From Candidatus Azobacteroides sp. (lineage in GTDB: Bacteria > Bacteroidota > Bacteroidia > Bacteroidales > WRGA01): a stretch of DNA of 51,083 nt. The notes under the pieces are model-generated. The model was given only the letters and a program-made list of their open reading frames with translations, was not told the DNA's origin and did no database searches. Position numbers and translations under genes: made by a program. The stretch lies in assembly GCA_021201815.1 (NCBI GenBank), contig JAJQEC010000001.1:1-51083 (forward strand), in the 5' to 3' direction. Below, piece after piece: positions 17,624 through 29,517 of the stretch; position 1 is the first letter of the stretch; each line of letters opens with the position of its first letter.

Positions 17624-17700
17624 GGTGTGGTAGTTCAGCTGGTTAGAATACCTGCCTGTCACGCAGGGGGTCGCGGGTTCGAGTCCCGTCCATACCGCCA
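17624..17700 (+). tRNA. tRNA-Asp (anticodon GTC)
   Basis: A 77-base cloverleaf: acceptor GGTGTGG pairs with CCATACC, the D arm contains AGCTGGTTAGAAT, the anticodon stem-loop is CCTGC-CTGTCAC-GCAGG with anticodon GTC, and the T arm is GCGGGTTCGAGTCCCGT. The discriminator is G and the CCA end is encoded. The 3' part is the attachment site of the adjacent integrative element, which leaves the tRNA intact. Confidence 0.97.
17686..17698 (+). other. attL core of the integrative element, within tRNA-Asp
   Basis: The 13 bases CCGTCCATACCGC at the 3' end of the tRNA recur as a direct repeat at 29718-29730. A tyrosine recombinase gene lies 240 bases downstream. Together they define an element of about 12.0 kb. 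Confidence 0.82.
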
Positions 17701-17720
17701 AGTTTTAAAGCAAATTAGAG

Positions 17721-17757
17721 TAAAGTCCTGAGAACTAAGGTTTTCGGGACTTTTTCT
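17721..17757 (+). terminator. Element-encoded replacement terminator for tRNA-Asp
   Basis: AAAGTCCTGAGAAC and GGTTTTCGGGACTTT form a hairpin followed by TTCTTTTTTC. It lies inside the element just past attL and would end the tRNA transcript whose native terminator now lies beyond attR (29732-29768). Confidence 0.7.
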
Positions 17758-17808
17758 TTTTTCACGGTAAAGCAAAATAAGGCGCTTTTCAGCAGAATTT
17801 ACAAACCA

Positions 17809-17850
17809 AATCGTGGGACTTTTTCTTTCCCCGGTTTTAGTCCCACGATT
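17809..17850. repeat. 12-bp perfect inverted repeat before the integrase
   Basis: AATCGTGGGACT (17809-17820) and AGTCCCACGATT (17839-17850) are perfect complements around an 18-base loop. The 14-base GGGACTTTTTCTTT within it also occurs at 17746-17759. It may be integrase arm sites, a second terminator or a transcription operator. Confidence 0.7.
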
Positions 17851-17909
17851 AAGGTTATTATTCTTTGATATGCAGGTATTTGCGTAGTGTTACAATGGAC
17901 TAAAGAAAG

Positions 17910-17917
17910 TAATTTTG
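17910..17917 (+). promoter_or_regulatory. Candidate -7 box for the integrase gene
   Basis: TAATTTTG matches TAnnTTTG and ends 21 bases before the ATG at 17939. Confidence 0.5.
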
Positions 17918-17938
17918 TAACTCAAAAAAACGTAATGT

Positions 17939-19177
17939 ATGAGCAGCTTGAAGAAATTGACATTTAGTGTAGCGTTCTTTATTAAAAAGAGTAAGTTGAG
18001 AAAAAACGGTGAAGCTCCTATTCTTTTACGGGTGACTGTAAACGGTGAAGTTGTAGAGATTATGATTAAACGGAGTATTCCTGTGGAAATGTGGGACCAG
18101 CTGAAGGGATGCAGCAAAGGAAAGGATTATAAATCCCGCGAACTAAATCATTATCTGGACACGATTAAAACCCGGATTTACCAAATCCAGCGGGAAAGGG
18201 AGATAGACGGAAAGGAAGTAACGGCAAAAGCGATCCGCGACCAATACCTCGGACGGGATGAATATTCACAGACTATTTTACAGGTGTATGAGGAGCATAA
18301 TAAGAAATGCCGTTCCCTGATCGGAATTGATTACACGGAATCAACGGTAGATAAATTCGACACTTCCCGTTCTCATTTGAAGGATTACATTCTCCACCAA
18401 TATAAAAAGGAAGATATGTTACTCCGGGAAATCAACAGCCAGTTTATTCTGGATTTTGATTTTTACCTGAAAACGGTTCGTAGAATCCAACACAATTCCA
18501 GCCTGAAACATCTGAAGAACTTAAAGAAGATTGTCCGTATTGCCCTTGCCAATGACTGGATAAAGAAAGATCCGTTTGTCGGAATCCAGTTTAAGCATGA
18601 AGAAAAGAATGTGGAGTTTCTGAGCCGGGAGGAATTAGATACTATTATAAACAAGGAATTTCCTGTGAAAAGACTGGAACAGGTACGGGATATTTTTATT
18701 TTCTGTTGTTTTACCGGATTGGCGTTTATTGATGTAAAACAGCTTTCCCGTGAACATCTGGTAAAAGATAATAACGGGACACTCTGGATACGCAAGAACC
18801 GCCAGAAAACAAAGAATATCTGTAATATCCCAGTGTTAAGCGTAGCCAGAAAATTGATTGAAAAATATTCCGGTTCTCCGGAATGTGAAAAGCATGGGGT
18901 ATTATTGCCTGTTTTGAGCAATCAGAAAATGAACTCTTACCTAAAAGAAATTGCCGATTTGTGCGGAATCAATAAAAATCTGACTACCCATGTGGCCCGA
19001 CATACCGCAGCGACAGTTGTCCTCCTTGCAAATGAGGTTTCTATGGAAAATGTGGCAAAGATATTGGGACATTCCAATACAAAGATGACACAACACTATG
19101 CAAAAGTGTTGGATAGTTCTATTTTGCGGGATATGGAAAAGGTGGAATTGTCTTTGGCAGGAAGTTTTAATTTTTAG
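17939..19177 (+). CDS. Tyrosine recombinase (integrase) of the tRNA-Asp element
   Basis: A 412-residue site-specific recombinase expected to integrate and excise the element at the tRNA-Asp att site. It has an N-terminal arm-binding domain (about 1-100), a SAM-like core-binding domain (about 110-210) and a C-terminal catalytic domain. Seen catalytic residues are His351 and Arg354 in HVARHTAAT, His378 in LGHSNTKMTQHY and the nucleophile Tyr387. The usual first arginine box reads CFTGLAFIDVKQL. Alanine replaces the canonical Arg of TGLR, a variation known in Bacteroidota conjugative-transposon integrases. It is transcribed away from attL, and convergent with the next gene across a strong terminator. 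Confidence 0.94.
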   Translation: MSSLKKLTFSVAFFIKKSKLRKNGEAPILLRVTVNGEVVEIMIKRSIPVEMWDQLKGCSKGKDYKSRELNHYLDTIKTRIYQIQREREIDGKEVTAKAIRDQYLGRDEYSQTILQVYEEHNKKCRSLIGIDYTESTVDKFDTSRSHLKDYILHQYKKEDMLLREINSQFILDFDFYLKTVRRIQHNSSLKHLKNLKKIVRIALANDWIKKDPFVGIQFKHEEKNVEFLSREELDTIINKEFPVKRLEQVRDIFIFCCFTGLAFIDVKQLSREHLVKDNNGTLWIRKNRQKTKNICNIPVLSVARKLIEKYSGSPECEKHGVLLPVLSNQKMNSYLKEIADLCGINKNLTTHVARHTAATVVLLANEVSMENVAKILGHSNTKMTQHYAKVLDSSILRDMEKVELSLAGSFNF

Positions 19178-21725: not shown

Positions 21726-22502
21726 ATGCCGAATATTCAACAATCTTTATCTTTGAAGAAAACATATAATTTTTTCAATCAACAAGAACAAAAACTTGAA
21801 GATTTTATAAAAAGTTCTAATCCTATTGTTCAAAAAAATGAAAAATCGTCTAAAGTTAGGAGGTTAAATGAAAGTTTTAATGTTAATCCTGATGTTCCCA
21901 GAGAAATTATTTACTTTGAAAGAAATATAAAAACCACAGTCGTTCTATTATATATTGATATTTTTGCTTTTTCAAAAATCATAGAGAATTATACCTCTAA
22001 TAAAATTAAAGATTATTTAGATGATTATTATAATATGATTATTCCAATCATTTATCAAGCGGGGGGCGAAGTTGAAAAGTTAATGGGTGATGGTATTATT
22101 TGTGTGTTTGGTAAACCTTTTATAAATAAAAGCATTGAAGAAATAATACAAATAGCAGAAGCATGTGCTATATATGTAATATTGAAAGCACAAAAAATAA
22201 ATAAGTGTGTCAAGATAGCTTTCCACGTTGGCGACATTACTTACTATAAAGTTCCATCAAAAGATTATTCTGAATATACTATCATTGGTCACCCTATGAC
22301 TGAATTACATAGGCTAGAATCTGTTTCAGTAAAAAATGCAGTAAATTATTTTACAAATTCAATTTATGATAGTGAATATTTTCAATTTGGCTTACTTAAT
22401 GAAATGAGGTTTGAACATGGCTTTTCTATTGAAACAAAAAATATTGATAATTTATCTGGTATCTGTTATGAGGAAATAAAATATTTAATAATAGACGAAT
22501 AA
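21726..22502 (+). CDS. Class III nucleotide cyclase-like protein (first cyclase of the operon)
   Basis: A 258-residue protein with a class III adenylate/guanylate cyclase domain at about 70-200. Seen landmarks: Asp78 in LLYIDIFAFS (first metal aspartate), GGEVEKLMGDGIICVFG with Lys118 at the base-contact position and Asp122 (second metal aspartate), and IIGHPMTELHRLES. In the last, Thr192 occupies the place of the transition-state Asn while Arg196 is kept. Thr185, three residues before Gly188, aligns with the second base-contact position, so the Lys/Thr pair resembles class IIIb adenylate cyclases. The missing Asn suggests weak activity alone, or pairing with the second cyclase, which has Asn. 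The stop is 2 bases before the next start; the three genes are one operon. Confidence 0.8.
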   Translation: MPNIQQSLSLKKTYNFFNQQEQKLEDFIKSSNPIVQKNEKSSKVRRLNESFNVNPDVPREIIYFERNIKTTVVLLYIDIFAFSKIIENYTSNKIKDYLDDYYNMIIPIIYQAGGEVEKLMGDGIICVFGKPFINKSIEEIIQIAEACAIYVILKAQKINKCVKIAFHVGDITYYKVPSKDYSEYTIIGHPMTELHRLESVSVKNAVNYFTNSIYDSEYFQFGLLNEMRFEHGFSIETKNIDNLSGICYEEIKYLIIDE

Positions 22503-22504
22503 AT

Positions 22505-23497
22505 ATGGTATTAAAAGATCTGATAAATGAAGTTCAGGAAGATATTCAGGATGTTAAAAATACCCAATTTATTTATAGTAACACTACCTCTGTGCCACGA
22601 AGAAAAGATCTTGGTCTTACTTTTGAAAGTGGTAAGGAAAAAAAAGGAAAAATTCTTAACACGTGTGTTTTATATGTAGATATACGGGATTCTGTTATCC
22701 TTACTCATAAATATGATTCTGAGACTATGGGGAAGTTATATACTGCATTTACAAAGGCGGTATTAAAAATTGCTAAATATTATTCCGGACATATACGAAA
22801 TATAATTGGTGATAGAGTAATGGTTATATTTAAACCAGAGAATTGTTTTTCGAATGCAATTTATTGTGCAATAGCTATCAATCATGTTTTTAGTAAAGTC
22901 TTTCCAACTATTTTTAAGGGGATTGATTTTAAATGTGGAATTGGCATTGATTATGGAGAACTAAAAGTAATAAAAGTAGGAATACAACGTCGTAATGAAG
23001 AACATTTCGAAAATTTATCATTAGTATGGACTGGTGAACCTGCAAATATTGCATCTAGATTGACAGATTTTGCTAATAAAAAAATTAAAAGGAATTTATT
23101 TGATGTTATTATGAAGAGCAGAGTTATTAATTTATTAGATTTGAAAAGATCATCATTTAATAATATCTTTGGCTCGCATGCAAATTCGTATAATAATACA
23201 AGATACCGAGAAACAAAAGAGACTTTAAATGAAGAAGAATTTATTAATTTAATTACTCACTTTGACAATAGTACTACTATCACTACAAATATTGGAATTA
23301 TGTCACAATTTCGAAAAAGATATGATAATATAAATTATCCACCTATCTTAATTACTCATAATGTATTTATGGGTTATAAAGAAAGAAATCCAGAATGTCT
23401 TACTATTAAAAATAGTTTGTGGTTAAGACAAGAACATAATTTCAATAATGTGAAATGCGAAGTATATAGAGGAGATATAATCTTGATTTTTGAATAA
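22505..23497 (+). CDS. pycC: Pycsar-type nucleotide cyclase
   Basis: A 330-residue class III cyclase, best read as the signal-producing enzyme of a Pycsar anti-phage system (cCMP or cUMP as messenger). The cyclase core at about 48-190 has all catalytic features: Asp59 in CVLYVDIRDSV, Asp103 in RNIIGDRVMVIF, and Asn181 and Arg185 in GEPANIASRLTD. The base-contact lysine of purine cyclases is replaced by Asn99, which fits a non-adenylate specificity (inference). About 140 residues follow the core, ending VYRGDIILIFE. They may be an AGS-C-like sensor domain of the kind fused to Pycsar cyclases, though I cannot confirm this by eye. It lies between another cyclase (2-base gap) and a membrane effector (11-base gap). 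Confidence 0.85.
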   Translation: MVLKDLINEVQEDIQDVKNTQFIYSNTTSVPRRKDLGLTFESGKEKKGKILNTCVLYVDIRDSVILTHKYDSETMGKLYTAFTKAVLKIAKYYSGHIRNIIGDRVMVIFKPENCFSNAIYCAIAINHVFSKVFPTIFKGIDFKCGIGIDYGELKVIKVGIQRRNEEHFENLSLVWTGEPANIASRLTDFANKKIKRNLFDVIMKSRVINLLDLKRSSFNNIFGSHANSYNNTRYRETKETLNEEEFINLITHFDNSTTITTNIGIMSQFRKRYDNINYPPILITHNVFMGYKERNPECLTIKNSLWLRQEHNFNNVKCEVYRGDIILIFE

Positions 23498-23508
23498 ATA
23501 AAGTGAAT

Positions 23509-24018
23509 ATGGATAAAAATGAGCATTTATATCGAATTTTTGATAACATAAATGATTGGTTAAAATTTGCTGAAGCTAAAATTTTAGGTTTAATAGCTTT
23601 TGATGTTGCTTTATTAGTTGGATATACACAAATTCATACTGAGAATCTTGTTATAAAATACGCCTCTGGAATTTTAGCTATTTTTTTAGTTTTATCTTTG
23701 CTTCTATGTATTATATCCGTGATCCCTATTGTCAACAAGGTTGCTGTCAAATTAAAAAAATGTAATTTTTCAAATATCCTGTTTTTTGGGTATATAAAAG
23801 ACTTGAATGAAAAAGAATTTGAAAAGGAATTTTTGTTAAAATTAGAAGATCAAGAACCACTGAATAAGTATGAAAAAGATTTAGTATGCCAAATACTATA
23901 CAATTCTAAAATAACAAGTCTAAAATGCCAGTTTTTTGATCTTGCTTCTTATATTCTAATTACAGGTATAATAATTTCCATAATTTCTTTTTTAATTTTA
24001 CATTTTATTCTCACATAA
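23509..24018 (+). CDS. pycTM: Pycsar transmembrane effector (PycTM-like)
   Basis: A 169-residue membrane protein starting MDKNEHLYRIFDNINDWLKF. An amphipathic N-terminus with the phrase FAEAKILGLIAF is followed by hydrophobic segments at about 24-40, 50-72 and 145-167. The NINDWLKFAEAK pattern and overall layout match the PycTM effector family, which is thought to respond to cyclic pyrimidine nucleotides by damaging the inner membrane and killing the infected cell. A GTG at 23503 gives two extra residues; the ATG at 23509 is preferred. It is the last gene of the operon with the two cyclases. No obvious terminator hairpin follows. Confidence 0.82.
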   Translation: MDKNEHLYRIFDNINDWLKFAEAKILGLIAFDVALLVGYTQIHTENLVIKYASGILAIFLVLSLLLCIISVIPIVNKVAVKLKKCNFSNILFFGYIKDLNEKEFEKEFLLKLEDQEPLNKYEKDLVCQILYNSKITSLKCQFFDLASYILITGIIISIISFLILHFILT

Positions 24019-26063: not shown

Positions 26064-27641
26064 TTAATTTGAAGCAAAATCTTTTATTTCTTTATAGGTC
26101 GATTTTTTAATTTCATGAAACTTATTCCAAATCTTTTTGGATTGATTTTTTATCGTGTCGTCTTCATTTATCTCTTTCATGACATGATTAGCTTTATTTA
26201 GATAGGCTATAAAATTACCCCAATCTTGTTGATTTGAACAACTATATCCGGTTGGACTATTTTTGTCTGGTAACCACTTTAATCGTCGTTTTGAACCAAA
26301 ATGTGTAAATCTTTTATACAAACGAGTTTCAAATAATAAATCTGATGGAATGTGAGTGGCTTTTGCAAAATGAGCTCCTCTTCTAAACGTTCTTTTCATA
26401 TTTCTGTAAAACTTGGAAAAACTTGCTGTTTTTACTCTTACTTTTAATCCATCATATTTGAAACCTAAGTATTCAAGTTGTTTATTGGGATTTATTAATT
26501 CGTCTTCTAATATACCACCTTTCAACTCTAAATCTTGATTTAATTCATAACGATATATGTTTGTTTTCTCAGAATGAATGTTAAGGCTTGCTTTAACTTC
26601 TATTTCTTGTTTAATTAAGTTATAAAAATACTTTTCATCTTTTTGGTCGCATATTATAATTAAATCATCACTGTAGCGTCGATAATAAGCATTTTTTGTC
26701 GGTGATATAACTTCTAAATAAACTCGTTCATCAAAATCTAACATATAAATATTTGCAAGAGTTGCACTTATAGGGGTTCCCTGTGGAATACCTTTCTTTT
26801 CTTCTTTGTTAAGAGATATACGGAGTGTATTTTTATTTGGTTTGTCAACTCTTATTAAATCGGTAGCCTCACTAAAGAATTCATCACTATAACAAAAAGC
26901 CACAACATTTTCATGGCGCATATTATAAATTTTACTAACCCGTTTTCTTTTAAGTTCTTTTTGAGTTTTGTCATTAGGCTTGAATCGTTCAACCACTAAT
27001 TTATTTTGAAATTTCTTGAATAATTCATTTTCATTCACGTATTTATTATTTACAAGATTTCTATAGATTGTGTAATGGTCATTTGGTAGATTATCTGTTT
27101 TTAAAACACGTTTCCATTGTTTATGTAAAATCCTATGATTTAGATTATCAAAAAAAGATGTGATATCAGTAACAATAATTGAAAGTTTTCTATGCTTATT
27201 AGTTTCTATAAACTTAAAAGCCTCAAAAGCAAATTCTATATTACACTTATTTCCGCTTTTACCATTCCCAATAGGTATTTTTCTATATGCAACAGCCACA
27301 GAATTATAAGGCTTATCTTTTAAATAATCTTCATAAGCTAATGTTAGCAAATGATTATAATAACTATAAACAATAGAATCTAAGTGAGAAGGGAAATAAA
27401 TATGCCGTTCTTTTTTTTCACTTATTGAACGTTGACGTTTGCCATATATGTTTTTGGGAGCATCTTTGAGAGGTCTATATTTACGTTGACTAATAGTTCG
27501 ATGCAATAAAGGTACAAACTTATGAGTAGCTATTTTTTCAGGATTAGTAACATAATTTTTTACCCAAGCTATATCCTTCTTACTTGTTAATGGTTTACCT
27601 ATATGAGGATATTTTTTAAATTTTAGCCATTCTACATTCAT
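26064..27641 (-). CDS. drt2: Defence-associated reverse transcriptase, DRT2 (UG2)-like
   Basis: A 525-residue RNA-directed DNA polymerase. Palm motifs are intact: Asp159 in IIVTDITSFFDNLNH, GIPQGTPISATLANIY (284-299), the catalytic YSDD box at 323-326 (RRYSDDLIII), EKTNIY (358-363) and LEYLGFKYDG. The segments YFPSHLDSIVYSYYNHLL, KCNIEFAFEAFKFI and LPNDHYTIYRNL resemble defence reverse transcriptases of the DRT2/UG2 class rather than group II intron enzymes, and there is no maturase or endonuclease domain. The class call rests on recalled similarity; another ncRNA-using class such as DRT9 is possible. DRT2 enzymes copy an adjacent structured RNA by rolling-circle reverse transcription to build a toxic gene during phage infection. 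A candidate RNA lies directly upstream. Confidence 0.82.
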   Translation of the reverse strand: MNVEWLKFKKYPHIGKPLTSKKDIAWVKNYVTNPEKIATHKFVPLLHRTISQRKYRPLKDAPKNIYGKRQRSISEKKERHIYFPSHLDSIVYSYYNHLLTLAYEDYLKDKPYNSVAVAYRKIPIGNGKSGNKCNIEFAFEAFKFIETNKHRKLSIIVTDITSFFDNLNHRILHKQWKRVLKTDNLPNDHYTIYRNLVNNKYVNENELFKKFQNKLVVERFKPNDKTQKELKRKRVSKIYNMRHENVVAFCYSDEFFSEATDLIRVDKPNKNTLRISLNKEEKKGIPQGTPISATLANIYMLDFDERVYLEVISPTKNAYYRRYSDDLIIICDQKDEKYFYNLIKQEIEVKASLNIHSEKTNIYRYELNQDLELKGGILEDELINPNKQLEYLGFKYDGLKVRVKTASFSKFYRNMKRTFRRGAHFAKATHIPSDLLFETRLYKRFTHFGSKRRLKWLPDKNSPTGYSCSNQQDWGNFIAYLNKANHVMKEINEDDTIKNQSKKIWNKFHEIKKSTYKEIKDFASN

Positions 27642-27649
27642 ATTGTAAA

Positions 27650-27971
27650 TATAAAAAAATTAAAGTTGGTCGTGGCAATCCTAAAGATAGATACAATCTT
27701 GAAGTTGCTTCTTGCTTTCGCATTGGACAACGCCACTCATTATTAGAATTAAATTCATAACTTTGTCAACACTATTAATTATGACAGTATCAACACAAGT
27801 GGAACTTAAGGTAATTCCTTTCACTCACTTAATAATGAAGCTTCTCAGAACATTATTGAAGATTTGTGAAGCAGAAATTAGTCTTCACACGTAAGCCAAA
27901 ATCTCCGTGTGGGACACTAAGATGTACTTTACATAAAACGTACCTATCGGTCTTGTCCCAACTTTAATTTT
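27650..27971 (-). ncRNA. Candidate structured template RNA of the DRT system
   Basis: Directly upstream of the reverse transcriptase and on the same strand. A perfect 14-bp inverted repeat (AAAATTAAAGTTGG, 27971-27958, with its complement 27669-27656) closes an RNA of about 316 bases; a U run follows its 3' arm. Inside are further stems: GGGACA/TGTCCC (27959-27954 with 27916-27911), CACACG/CGTGTG (27911-27906 with 27891-27886), AATAATG/CATTATT (27857-27851 with 27837-27831), and a GAAA tetraloop hairpin TGC-GAAA-GCA (27722-27713). Size, position and multi-stem layout fit the ncRNAs of DRT2-type systems. The exact ends and the promoter are not defined; no TAnnTTTG box is seen upstream. Confidence 0.68.
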
Positions 27972-28399: not shown

Positions 28400-28407
28400 T
28401 ATATTTG
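28400..28407 (+). promoter_or_regulatory. -7 box of the fic gene inside a 6-bp inverted repeat
   Basis: TATATTTG matches TAnnTTTG. ATGCGG (28383-28388) and CCGCAT (28408-28413) flank it as a perfect inverted repeat, a plausible operator. The box overlaps the TTG at 28405, so translation most likely starts at 28426. Confidence 0.55.
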
Positions 28408-28425
28408 CCGCATAAGCGTTTTCTT

Positions 28426-29517
28426 ATGGCTAAATATATCTATCAATATAGCAACTGGCCTCATTTCACATGGGATGAAAAGGAGATACTGGCTCTTTTG
28501 GGCAATCTGCGGTATTTGCAAGGCAAACTATTAGGGCAAATGAGTACAGTAGGTTTTTCTTTACAGGAAGAAACAACGCTTACTACTTTGACCTTGGATG
28601 TACTAAAGTCCTCTGAGATCGAAGGAGAAATATTAAATTACGATCAGGTGCGTTCTTCCATCGCAAGACATTTGGGGTTGGAGTATGCTGGAATGGTGTA
28701 TCCGGATAGGAATGTTGAAGGCGTGGTCGAAATGATGCTCGATGCTACGCAAAACTATAAACAGCCGCTTAACGATGAACGCCTGTTCGGTTGGCATGCT
28801 GCATTATTTCCTACGGGGAGGAGTGGAATGCATAGGATAGAGGTCGCCCGTTATCGCAGTGGAGAGATGCAGATTGTTTCAGGGGCAATGGGAAAAGAGA
28901 AAGTCCATTATCAGGCACCTTCTCCCGGTCAGGTAGCACATGAGATGAACGCCTTTCTCAAATGGTTCAATGAGGAAGATAAATTAGACCTTGTTCTCAA
29001 ATCAGCCATTGCTCATTTCTGGTTTATTATCATTCACCCGTTCGATGATGGCAATGGTCGAATAGCGAGAGCCATATCGGACTTATTGCTTGCCCGTTCG
29101 GACAACACATCACAGCGTTTCTACAGTTTGTCAAGCCGGATACTTGTCGAAAGAAAAGTTTATTATGAAGTATTGCAAAAGACACAATTTAGTGATGGAG
29201 ATATTACAGACTGGCTGGTATGGTATCTGAATTGCCTGTACCGTGCCTTACAGACCACAGAAGCGGCATTTCAGAAAGTATTATACAAAGCTGCTTTTTG
29301 GGATAAACATAAAGAAACAACACTTAATTCCCGGCAGCGGTTAATGTTAAATAAACTATTAGACGGGTTCGACGGCAAACTCACTTCATCCAAATGGGCC
29401 AAAATTACCAAGTCTTCTCAGGATACGGCATTGCGTGATATAAACGATCTGATGGATAAAGGTATTTTATGTAAGGAGGCAAGCGGAGGAAGAAGTACAA
29501 ATTATGAGTTAATATAA
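28426..29517 (+). CDS. Fic/DOC family protein with DUF4172 and C-terminal winged helix
   Basis: A 363-residue Fic protein expected to AMPylate a protein target using ATP. The catalytic loop HPFDDGNGRIAR is intact (His204). The inhibitory helix motif SSEIEGE (residues 62-68, [S/T]xxxE[G/N] type) is in the N-terminal half, which classes it as a self-inhibited class II Fic protein. The first 80 residues match the DUF4172 leader (YIYQYSNWPHFTWDEKEI). The last 60 residues form a winged-helix-like DNA-binding tail (KWAKITKSSQDTALRDINDL), so it may regulate its own promoter, where an inverted repeat surrounds the -7 box. It is the last gene before attR. Roles in toxin-antitoxin or stress control are known for relatives; its target is unknown. 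Confidence 0.92.
   Translation: MAKYIYQYSNWPHFTWDEKEILALLGNLRYLQGKLLGQMSTVGFSLQEETTLTTLTLDVLKSSEIEGEILNYDQVRSSIARHLGLEYAGMVYPDRNVEGVVEMMLDATQNYKQPLNDERLFGWHAALFPTGRSGMHRIEVARYRSGEMQIVSGAMGKEKVHYQAPSPGQVAHEMNAFLKWFNEEDKLDLVLKSAIAHFWFIIIHPFDDGNGRIARAISDLLLARSDNTSQRFYSLSSRILVERKVYYEVLQKTQFSDGDITDWLVWYLNCLYRALQTTEAAFQKVLYKAAFWDKHKETTLNSRQRLMLNKLLDGFDGKLTSSKWAKITKSSQDTALRDINDLMDKGILCKEASGGRSTNYELI

Follow-up and report, generated by a model that had tools for sequence, protein, structure and literature searches.

A Divergent Bacteroidota DRT2 Locus with a Predicted neo Gene and Predicted Host-Type Junction Promoter

Introduction

A stretch of 51,083 nucleotides (nt) from Candidatus Azobacteroides sp. 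(assembly GCA_021201815.1, contig JAJQEC010000001.1, positions 1 to 51,083 of the forward strand), here called the window, carries a reverse transcriptase (RT) gene of the DRT2 type and, upstream of it on the same strand, a predicted noncoding RNA (ncRNA) with a variable template inside a conserved scaffold. The locus, from a divergent branch of the Bacteroidota, is very probably a neo-type DRT2 system for phage defence, in which tandem complementary DNA (cDNA) copied from a 129-nt template would give rise to a junction promoter and an endless neo gene.

Two reports on the DRT2 system of Klebsiella pneumoniae (KpDRT2) describe a 120-nt unit between two ACA motifs, an endless antisense frame, and a sigma-70 promoter formed solely at unit junctions (PMC12039810, PMC11100668). 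For divergent DRT2 clades, PMC11100668 predicts ncRNAs, calls Neo annotation more challenging, and suggests alternative mechanisms. A full-text literature search found no paper on DRT2 in Bacteroidota; the supplements and final version of PMC11100668 lay outside that search, and a prior description is possible.

Results and Discussion

The Reverse Transcriptase

The RT gene and the structural elements of the RNA upstream of it are as follows.

26064–27641, minus strand: RT (DRT2/UG2), 525 amino acids, motif Y323-S324-D325-D326
27656–27971, minus strand: predicted ncRNA, about 316 nt, spanning both arms of the closing stem, with homologues in 12/12 close relatives (window included)
27958–27971, minus strand: 5' arm of a perfect 14-bp closing stem (sequence and permutation test)
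27656–27669, minus strand: 3' arm of the closing stem, followed by a U run (sequence and permutation test)
27935–27951, minus strand: 5' side of a long-range scaffold helix (UACG... region), 94–97% paired, 7 pairs with double changes
27679–27700, minus strand: 3' side of the scaffold helix (covariation)
27886–27911, minus strand: 5' handle hairpin CACACG...CGTGTG, just ahead of the template, 100% of cells paired

A preliminary description of this DNA, made without database searches, had proposed a DRT2-like enzyme with a YSDD motif at residues 323–326. The open reading frame (ORF) and the motif are present as described, and a profile search (PADLOC) placed the enzyme with the Drt2 models (438.5 and 268.9 bits), far ahead of the next non-Drt2 family, UG17 (79.9 bits); the Drt9 (UG28) profile reached 45.7 bits. 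A phmmer search with the RT matched the K. pneumoniae DRT2 protein (PDB 9c0i) at 1e-44. The structure predicted by AlphaFold from 32 homologues (predicted local distance difference test [pLDDT] 89.9) aligns with 9c0i over 413/425 residues at a Z-score of 33.6 and a root mean square deviation of 2.1 Å, and the next entry scores 21.2. By profile, fold, and tree, the enzyme is thus a DRT2. RVT_1 is the sole domain found in it by a Pfam scan, with no extra effector domain, and the adjoining genes are either transcribed in the opposite direction or part of other systems, leaving a single RT gene.

The Upstream RNA

One scan of genome contigs yielded ten closely related RTs (59–77% identity over the best tblastn segment; L011–L020), all from Bacteroidota. 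An eleventh relative, L008, lies on a Marivirga plasmid (NZ_CP129969.1) and has a frameshifted RT; these eleven and the window make up a set of 12 RNAs. A homologous RNA occupies the same place upstream of the RT in 11/11 relatives. On the ncRNA strand, the fold is more stable than 100/100 dinucleotide shuffles (z score −4.0). A 64-pair structure holds in 90.3% of cells across the 12 aligned sequences, as against 31–43% when partners are slid by one to three columns, and 26 pairs show double changes. The sequence of the closing stem varies by species while its pairing is kept: own arms average −16.7 kcal/mol and swapped arms −9.4, and 0/20000 permutations were as good as the own arms. In almost every relative a run of U comes after the stem.

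Much of the RNA proposed in the preliminary description survives this comparison. The RNA of about 316 nt and its perfect 14-bp closing stem are exact, and the stem is kept, with covariation, in the 11 relatives, as are other covarying helices. Its CACACG/CGTGTG stem corresponds to the handle hairpin. A GGGACA/TGTCCC stem, by contrast, shows no double changes, is broken in several relatives, and competes with the handle hairpin, and with no covariation it is not supported as a functional stem; AATAATG/CATTATT pairing sites do exist, but inside the template and with weak conservation. The long-range covarying helix and the antisense coding design of the template go beyond what had been described. 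Neither an RT class lacking an ncRNA nor a want of covariation in relatives, either of which would have told against the earlier reading, was observed, and that reading is supported.

Rfam holds no family matching the ncRNA (its sole match was a tRNA), and an nhmmer search with the 12-sequence profile found matches confined to the close clade. Direct alignment with a clade whose RTs are 45% identical shows TACGTTT, handle, and scaffold blocks common to both.

Template Unit, Anchors, and Reading Frame

Within the RNA and on the strand opposite to it we predict the following elements.

27876–27880, minus strand: 5' jump anchor (RNA UAAUU; AUUCC-type in relatives), 5' boundary of the template
27747–27751, minus strand: 3' jump anchor (RNA UAAUU; AUUCU-type in relatives), 3' boundary of the template
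27750–27878, minus strand: template unit of 129 nt, a multiple of three, of low conservation, presumably copied in tandem into cDNA
27750–27878, plus strand: putative neo repeat KFITLSTLLIMTVSTQVELKVIPFTHLIMKLLRTLLKICEAEI, 43 codons, without stops across the junctions of four joined units
27863–27866, plus strand: candidate −33 promoter box TTTG, which unit joining sets 20 bp ahead of the −7 box
27758–27765, plus strand: candidate −7 promoter box TAACTTTG (Bacteroidota consensus TAHHTTTG), which would be active solely after unit joining
27781–27783, plus strand: likely neo start codon ATG, in the open frame, 15 nt downstream of the −7 box

The template is the least conserved part of the ncRNA (mean identity 0.65, vs. 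0.85 and 0.80 in the flanks), and it is flanked by an AUUYC block that follows the handle hairpin and by an AUUCU block that precedes the scaffold. Defining the unit as running from the first anchor block to just before the second gives lengths of 129, 132, 135, 138, or 141 nt, a multiple of three in 12/12, and every alignment gap within the template is likewise a multiple of three. When four copies of the window unit are joined, one antisense frame contains 0 stops and the other two contain 12 and 32; the same frame is stop-free over four joined units in 12/12 RNAs, with many stops in the other two. The invariant template positions are mainly those of the promoter boxes and anchors. In one relative, L014, both anchors are altered in concert, from ATT to TTT. 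The earlier suggestion that the RNA is a rolling-circle template thus gains support, since repeated candidate anchors bound a variable unit with a neo-type frame.

In none of the 12 RNAs does an ACA stand at a unit boundary; pairs of ACA motifs in the window RNA were considered as anchors and rejected because they are not conserved in the alignment of relatives. A Pfam scan of Neo found no domain. A single repeat was modelled as one long helix with modest confidence (pLDDT 72).

An independent record of the unit comes from Capnocytophaga leadbetteri (L048, NZ_QBKG01000002.1, L048:3565-3832), in which a 132-nt template unit stands twice in perfect chromosomal tandem, at 100% identity. G404 (L117), the closest relative found within Capnocytophaga, carries a single copy; the two loci differ by precisely one unit, measured from anchor to anchor. 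This duplication independently marks the unit boundaries and is a natural record of them. Possible origins are recombination of concatemeric cDNA with the locus, a chance duplication, and cDNA reads drawn into the assembly as an artefact.

A Candidate Promoter at the Unit Junction

In Bacteroidetes the housekeeping sigma factor recognizes TTTG/TANNTTTG, in refined form TAHHTTTG, and E. coli promoters are not read (PMC6847099); a junction promoter of some type other than sigma-70 is therefore to be expected here. The junction sequences of the 12 RNAs contain no sigma-70 promoter of the form TTGACA-N17-TATAAT. Instead, each of the 12 units has TAnCTTT[GA] close to its start and TTTG close to its end, so that joined units rebuild TTTG-N20-TAnCTTT[GA]. 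The spacer is exactly 20 in 12/12 despite unit lengths that differ from 129 to 141 nt; in the window it is composed of 12 nt to the unit end and 8 nt from the unit start. An in-frame ATG follows the −7 box by 12–21 nt in 11/12.

A finder that demands both boxes, an anchor that recurs, a stop-free antisense frame, and a unit length that is a multiple of three matches 12/12 close relatives and 1.2% of dinucleotide shuffles. We then surveyed 86 DRT2 upstream regions, nearly all from Bacteroidota. With a spacer of 20, 41/86 match (1.8 expected), as compared with 1–11 for each of the other spacers from 14 to 26 and 1 on the opposite strand. When the frame and length requirements are dropped, unit lengths leave remainders of 0, 1, and 2 on division by three in 45, 11, and 3 cases, against 9.9, 8.5, and 8.2 in shuffles. 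Unrelated tiles of the same genomes match at 4.5% (relaxed) and 0.8% (strict), the regions upstream of RTs at 41/82 and 26/82. Units range from 114 to 183 nt, and different branches of the RT tree show between them at least seven types of anchor; the design is therefore not one inherited coincidence.

When run with TGT anchors and sigma-70 boxes, a version of the finder picks up the published layout in five loci of the K. pneumoniae type (117-nt units). A sigma-70 search on Bacteroidota loci gave scattered matches (17/96), partly to the same units through overlapping boxes, and was set aside.

Two further observations concern individual loci. A second Bacteroidota DRT2 clade (L021–L027, L036, L064, L074), with RTs of about 45% identity, has the anchor AUACC, units of 150–156 nt, and the same 20-bp junction promoter, and its closing stem differs widely in sequence (e.g., GGGGTCAGA/TCTGACCCC). 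The Marivirga plasmid locus keeps an intact ncRNA, neo frame, junction promoter, and pair of anchors beside the frameshifted RT; the frameshifts are either sequencing errors or signs of a recently decayed RT.

DRT2-type RTs proved already widespread in Bacteroidota (80 loci in one scan), which corrects the idea in the preliminary description that the locus, if DRT2, extends the system to a mobile element of a T9SS-bearing Bacteroidales. The novelty lies in a template, anchors, and promoter specific to the phylum, not in the occurrence of DRT2 there.

Comparison with Known Systems

The locus resembles KpDRT2 (PDB 9c0i) in its single UG2-type RT gene, its same-strand upstream ncRNA, and the fold of its RT. 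It also appears to share a variable template between short matching anchors, a unit that is a multiple of three, a stop-free antisense frame across junctions, a junction-only promoter, a start codon soon after the promoter box, and a repeat predicted to be helical, as Neo is in PMC11100668. The RT of the window is about 100 amino acids longer; its anchors are AUU/AUUC rather than ACA; its unit is 129 rather than 120 nt; its RNA is about 316 nt long with a covarying 5'–3' closing stem, whereas that of KpDRT2 is 280 nt; its candidate promoter is of the Bacteroidota −33/−7 type with a 20-bp spacer, whereas that of KpDRT2 is a sigma-70 −35/−10 promoter with a spacer of 17; and the Neo sequences have no detectable similarity.

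The window system probably belongs to the divergent DRT2 clades of PMC11100668. In contrast to the difficulty reported there, a neo frame and a promoter emerge when the search admits other anchors and follows Bacteroidota promoter rules.

DRT9 and DRT10 (PMC12483538, PMC12632851) share with this locus repeated, ncRNA-guided cDNA synthesis by Class 2 UG RTs. Unlike the system proposed here, they make homopolymers or short tandem repeats with protein priming, and have no junction promoter or reading frame; their profile and fold matches to the window RT are far weaker than those of DRT2.

Proposed Mechanism and Alternatives

DRT2 systems are also characterised by a pseudoknot in the 3' scaffold of the ncRNA, priming from the 3' end of that RNA, and phage-induced concatemeric cDNA, neo mRNA, growth arrest, and defence. 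Following KpDRT2, we propose that the RT binds the closed upstream ncRNA, primes from its 3' end, and extends through the 129-nt template toward the 5' anchor. The end of the nascent cDNA would then re-pair with the 3' anchor in each round, so that copying resumes and a tandem-repeat cDNA is formed. Second-strand synthesis would activate the junction promoter TTTG-N20-TAACTTTG, of the housekeeping Bacteroidota type, and this would drive an endless in-frame neo message from the strand opposite to the ncRNA. The product, a hydrophobic and probably helical Neo repeat protein, would arrest the infected cell.

Sequence analysis underlies the parts of this proposal that concern RT identity, RNA conservation and covariation, and the predicted anchors, unit length, open frame, and junction promoter. 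Several points weigh against the proposal as a whole. Transcription, RNA binding, priming, cDNA concatemers, the second strand, translation, toxicity, and a phage trigger and defence are argued by analogy with the K. pneumoniae system. The NCBIfam Drt2 equivalog is by far the RT's top family, but its score of 318.8 bits falls below the cut-off of 390, a shortfall that fits a divergent DRT2 branch and reflects a limit of the model more than a biological feature. The surveyed relatives are not independent of one another, 45/86 loci lack a detected design at spacer 20, and the −33 element of Flavobacterium promoters is weak. Neo shows no clear purifying selection on its amino acids, with synonymous and nonsynonymous changes near random expectation; constraint on the published Neo is likewise mostly at the DNA level. 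Because purifying selection is unclear, the predicted effector may rely on general properties such as hydrophobic helices.

That weak amino acid conservation would also suit a system in which the tandem cDNA is itself the effector, no protein is made, and the open frame is a by-product, much as DRT9 and DRT10 act through repeated DNA (PMC12483538, PMC12632851). We consider this unlikely, as a DNA effector requires neither units in multiples of three (45/11/3 in the survey), nor a frame free of stops in 12/12, nor an in-frame ATG 12–21 nt after the promoter in 11/12.

The antisense frame might instead be an ordinary small gene overlapping the RNA and owing nothing to concatemers, and it is indeed open in the chromosome as well, as a 60-amino-acid ORF (27712–27894). 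The chromosomal −33 and −7 boxes, however, stand in the wrong order and attain their 20-bp spacing solely across a junction, and a small gene leaves unexplained both the continuity of the frame over the junction and the repeat of the anchor, while Capnocytophaga has duplicated exactly one unit; we regard this account as very improbable. Equally improbable is a degenerate or inactive DRT2 remnant: the frameshifted RT of the plasmid relative speaks for it, but the RT in the window shows no truncation, retains its YSDD, and gives a well-folded model, and anchors, frame, and promoter are intact. Least probable of all is a DRT9-like system templating poly(dA) on the U run present in nearly all relatives, given that this run lies outside the closing stem and that DRT9 trails DRT2 in both profile score (45.7 vs. 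438.5 bits) and fold (Z 17 vs. 33.6).

A neo-type DRT2 system therefore remains much the most probable reading of the locus.

Genomic Surroundings

The locus has the following neighbours in the window.

17624–17700: tRNA-Asp
17939–19177: tyrosine integrase (Arm-DNA-bind_5, Phage_integrase), after tRNA-Asp
21726–24018: Pycsar-type cluster of two adjacent cyclases (PycC, 21726–22502; second cyclase, 22505–23497) and one PycTM effector (23503–24018)
28405–29517: Fic protein on the other side of the DRT2 locus (DUF4172 and Fic; SoFic profile, 154 bits)

A Pycsar-type set in which two cyclases accompany one effector is, to our knowledge, unusual. Together, the tRNA-Asp and integrase, the Pycsar-type set, two helix-turn-helix genes, DRT2, and Fic form a defence-rich integrated element, of which the tRNA-Asp and integrase (17624–19177) are the left end. 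As to the right end, the window yielded no downstream att repeat of the tRNA 3' end.

Implications

The Capnocytophaga duplication raises the possibility, which we offer tentatively and with somewhat less than even confidence, that concatemeric DRT2 cDNA can flow back into the chromosome; more broadly, and just as tentatively, anchors and junction promoters may evolve freely, being retuned to the transcription machinery of each phylum. For experimental work, the results point to E. coli as the wrong host in which to assay Bacteroidota DRT2; Bacteroidota RNA polymerase does not read E. coli promoters. The published prediction of neo was built on ACA anchors and a sigma-70 promoter, and a large branch of DRT2 now receives concrete, testable candidate neo genes, each specified by its anchors, frame, start codon, and promoter. 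The findings indicate that rolling-circle reverse transcription creates genes throughout the phylum, with the junction promoter adapted to the host.
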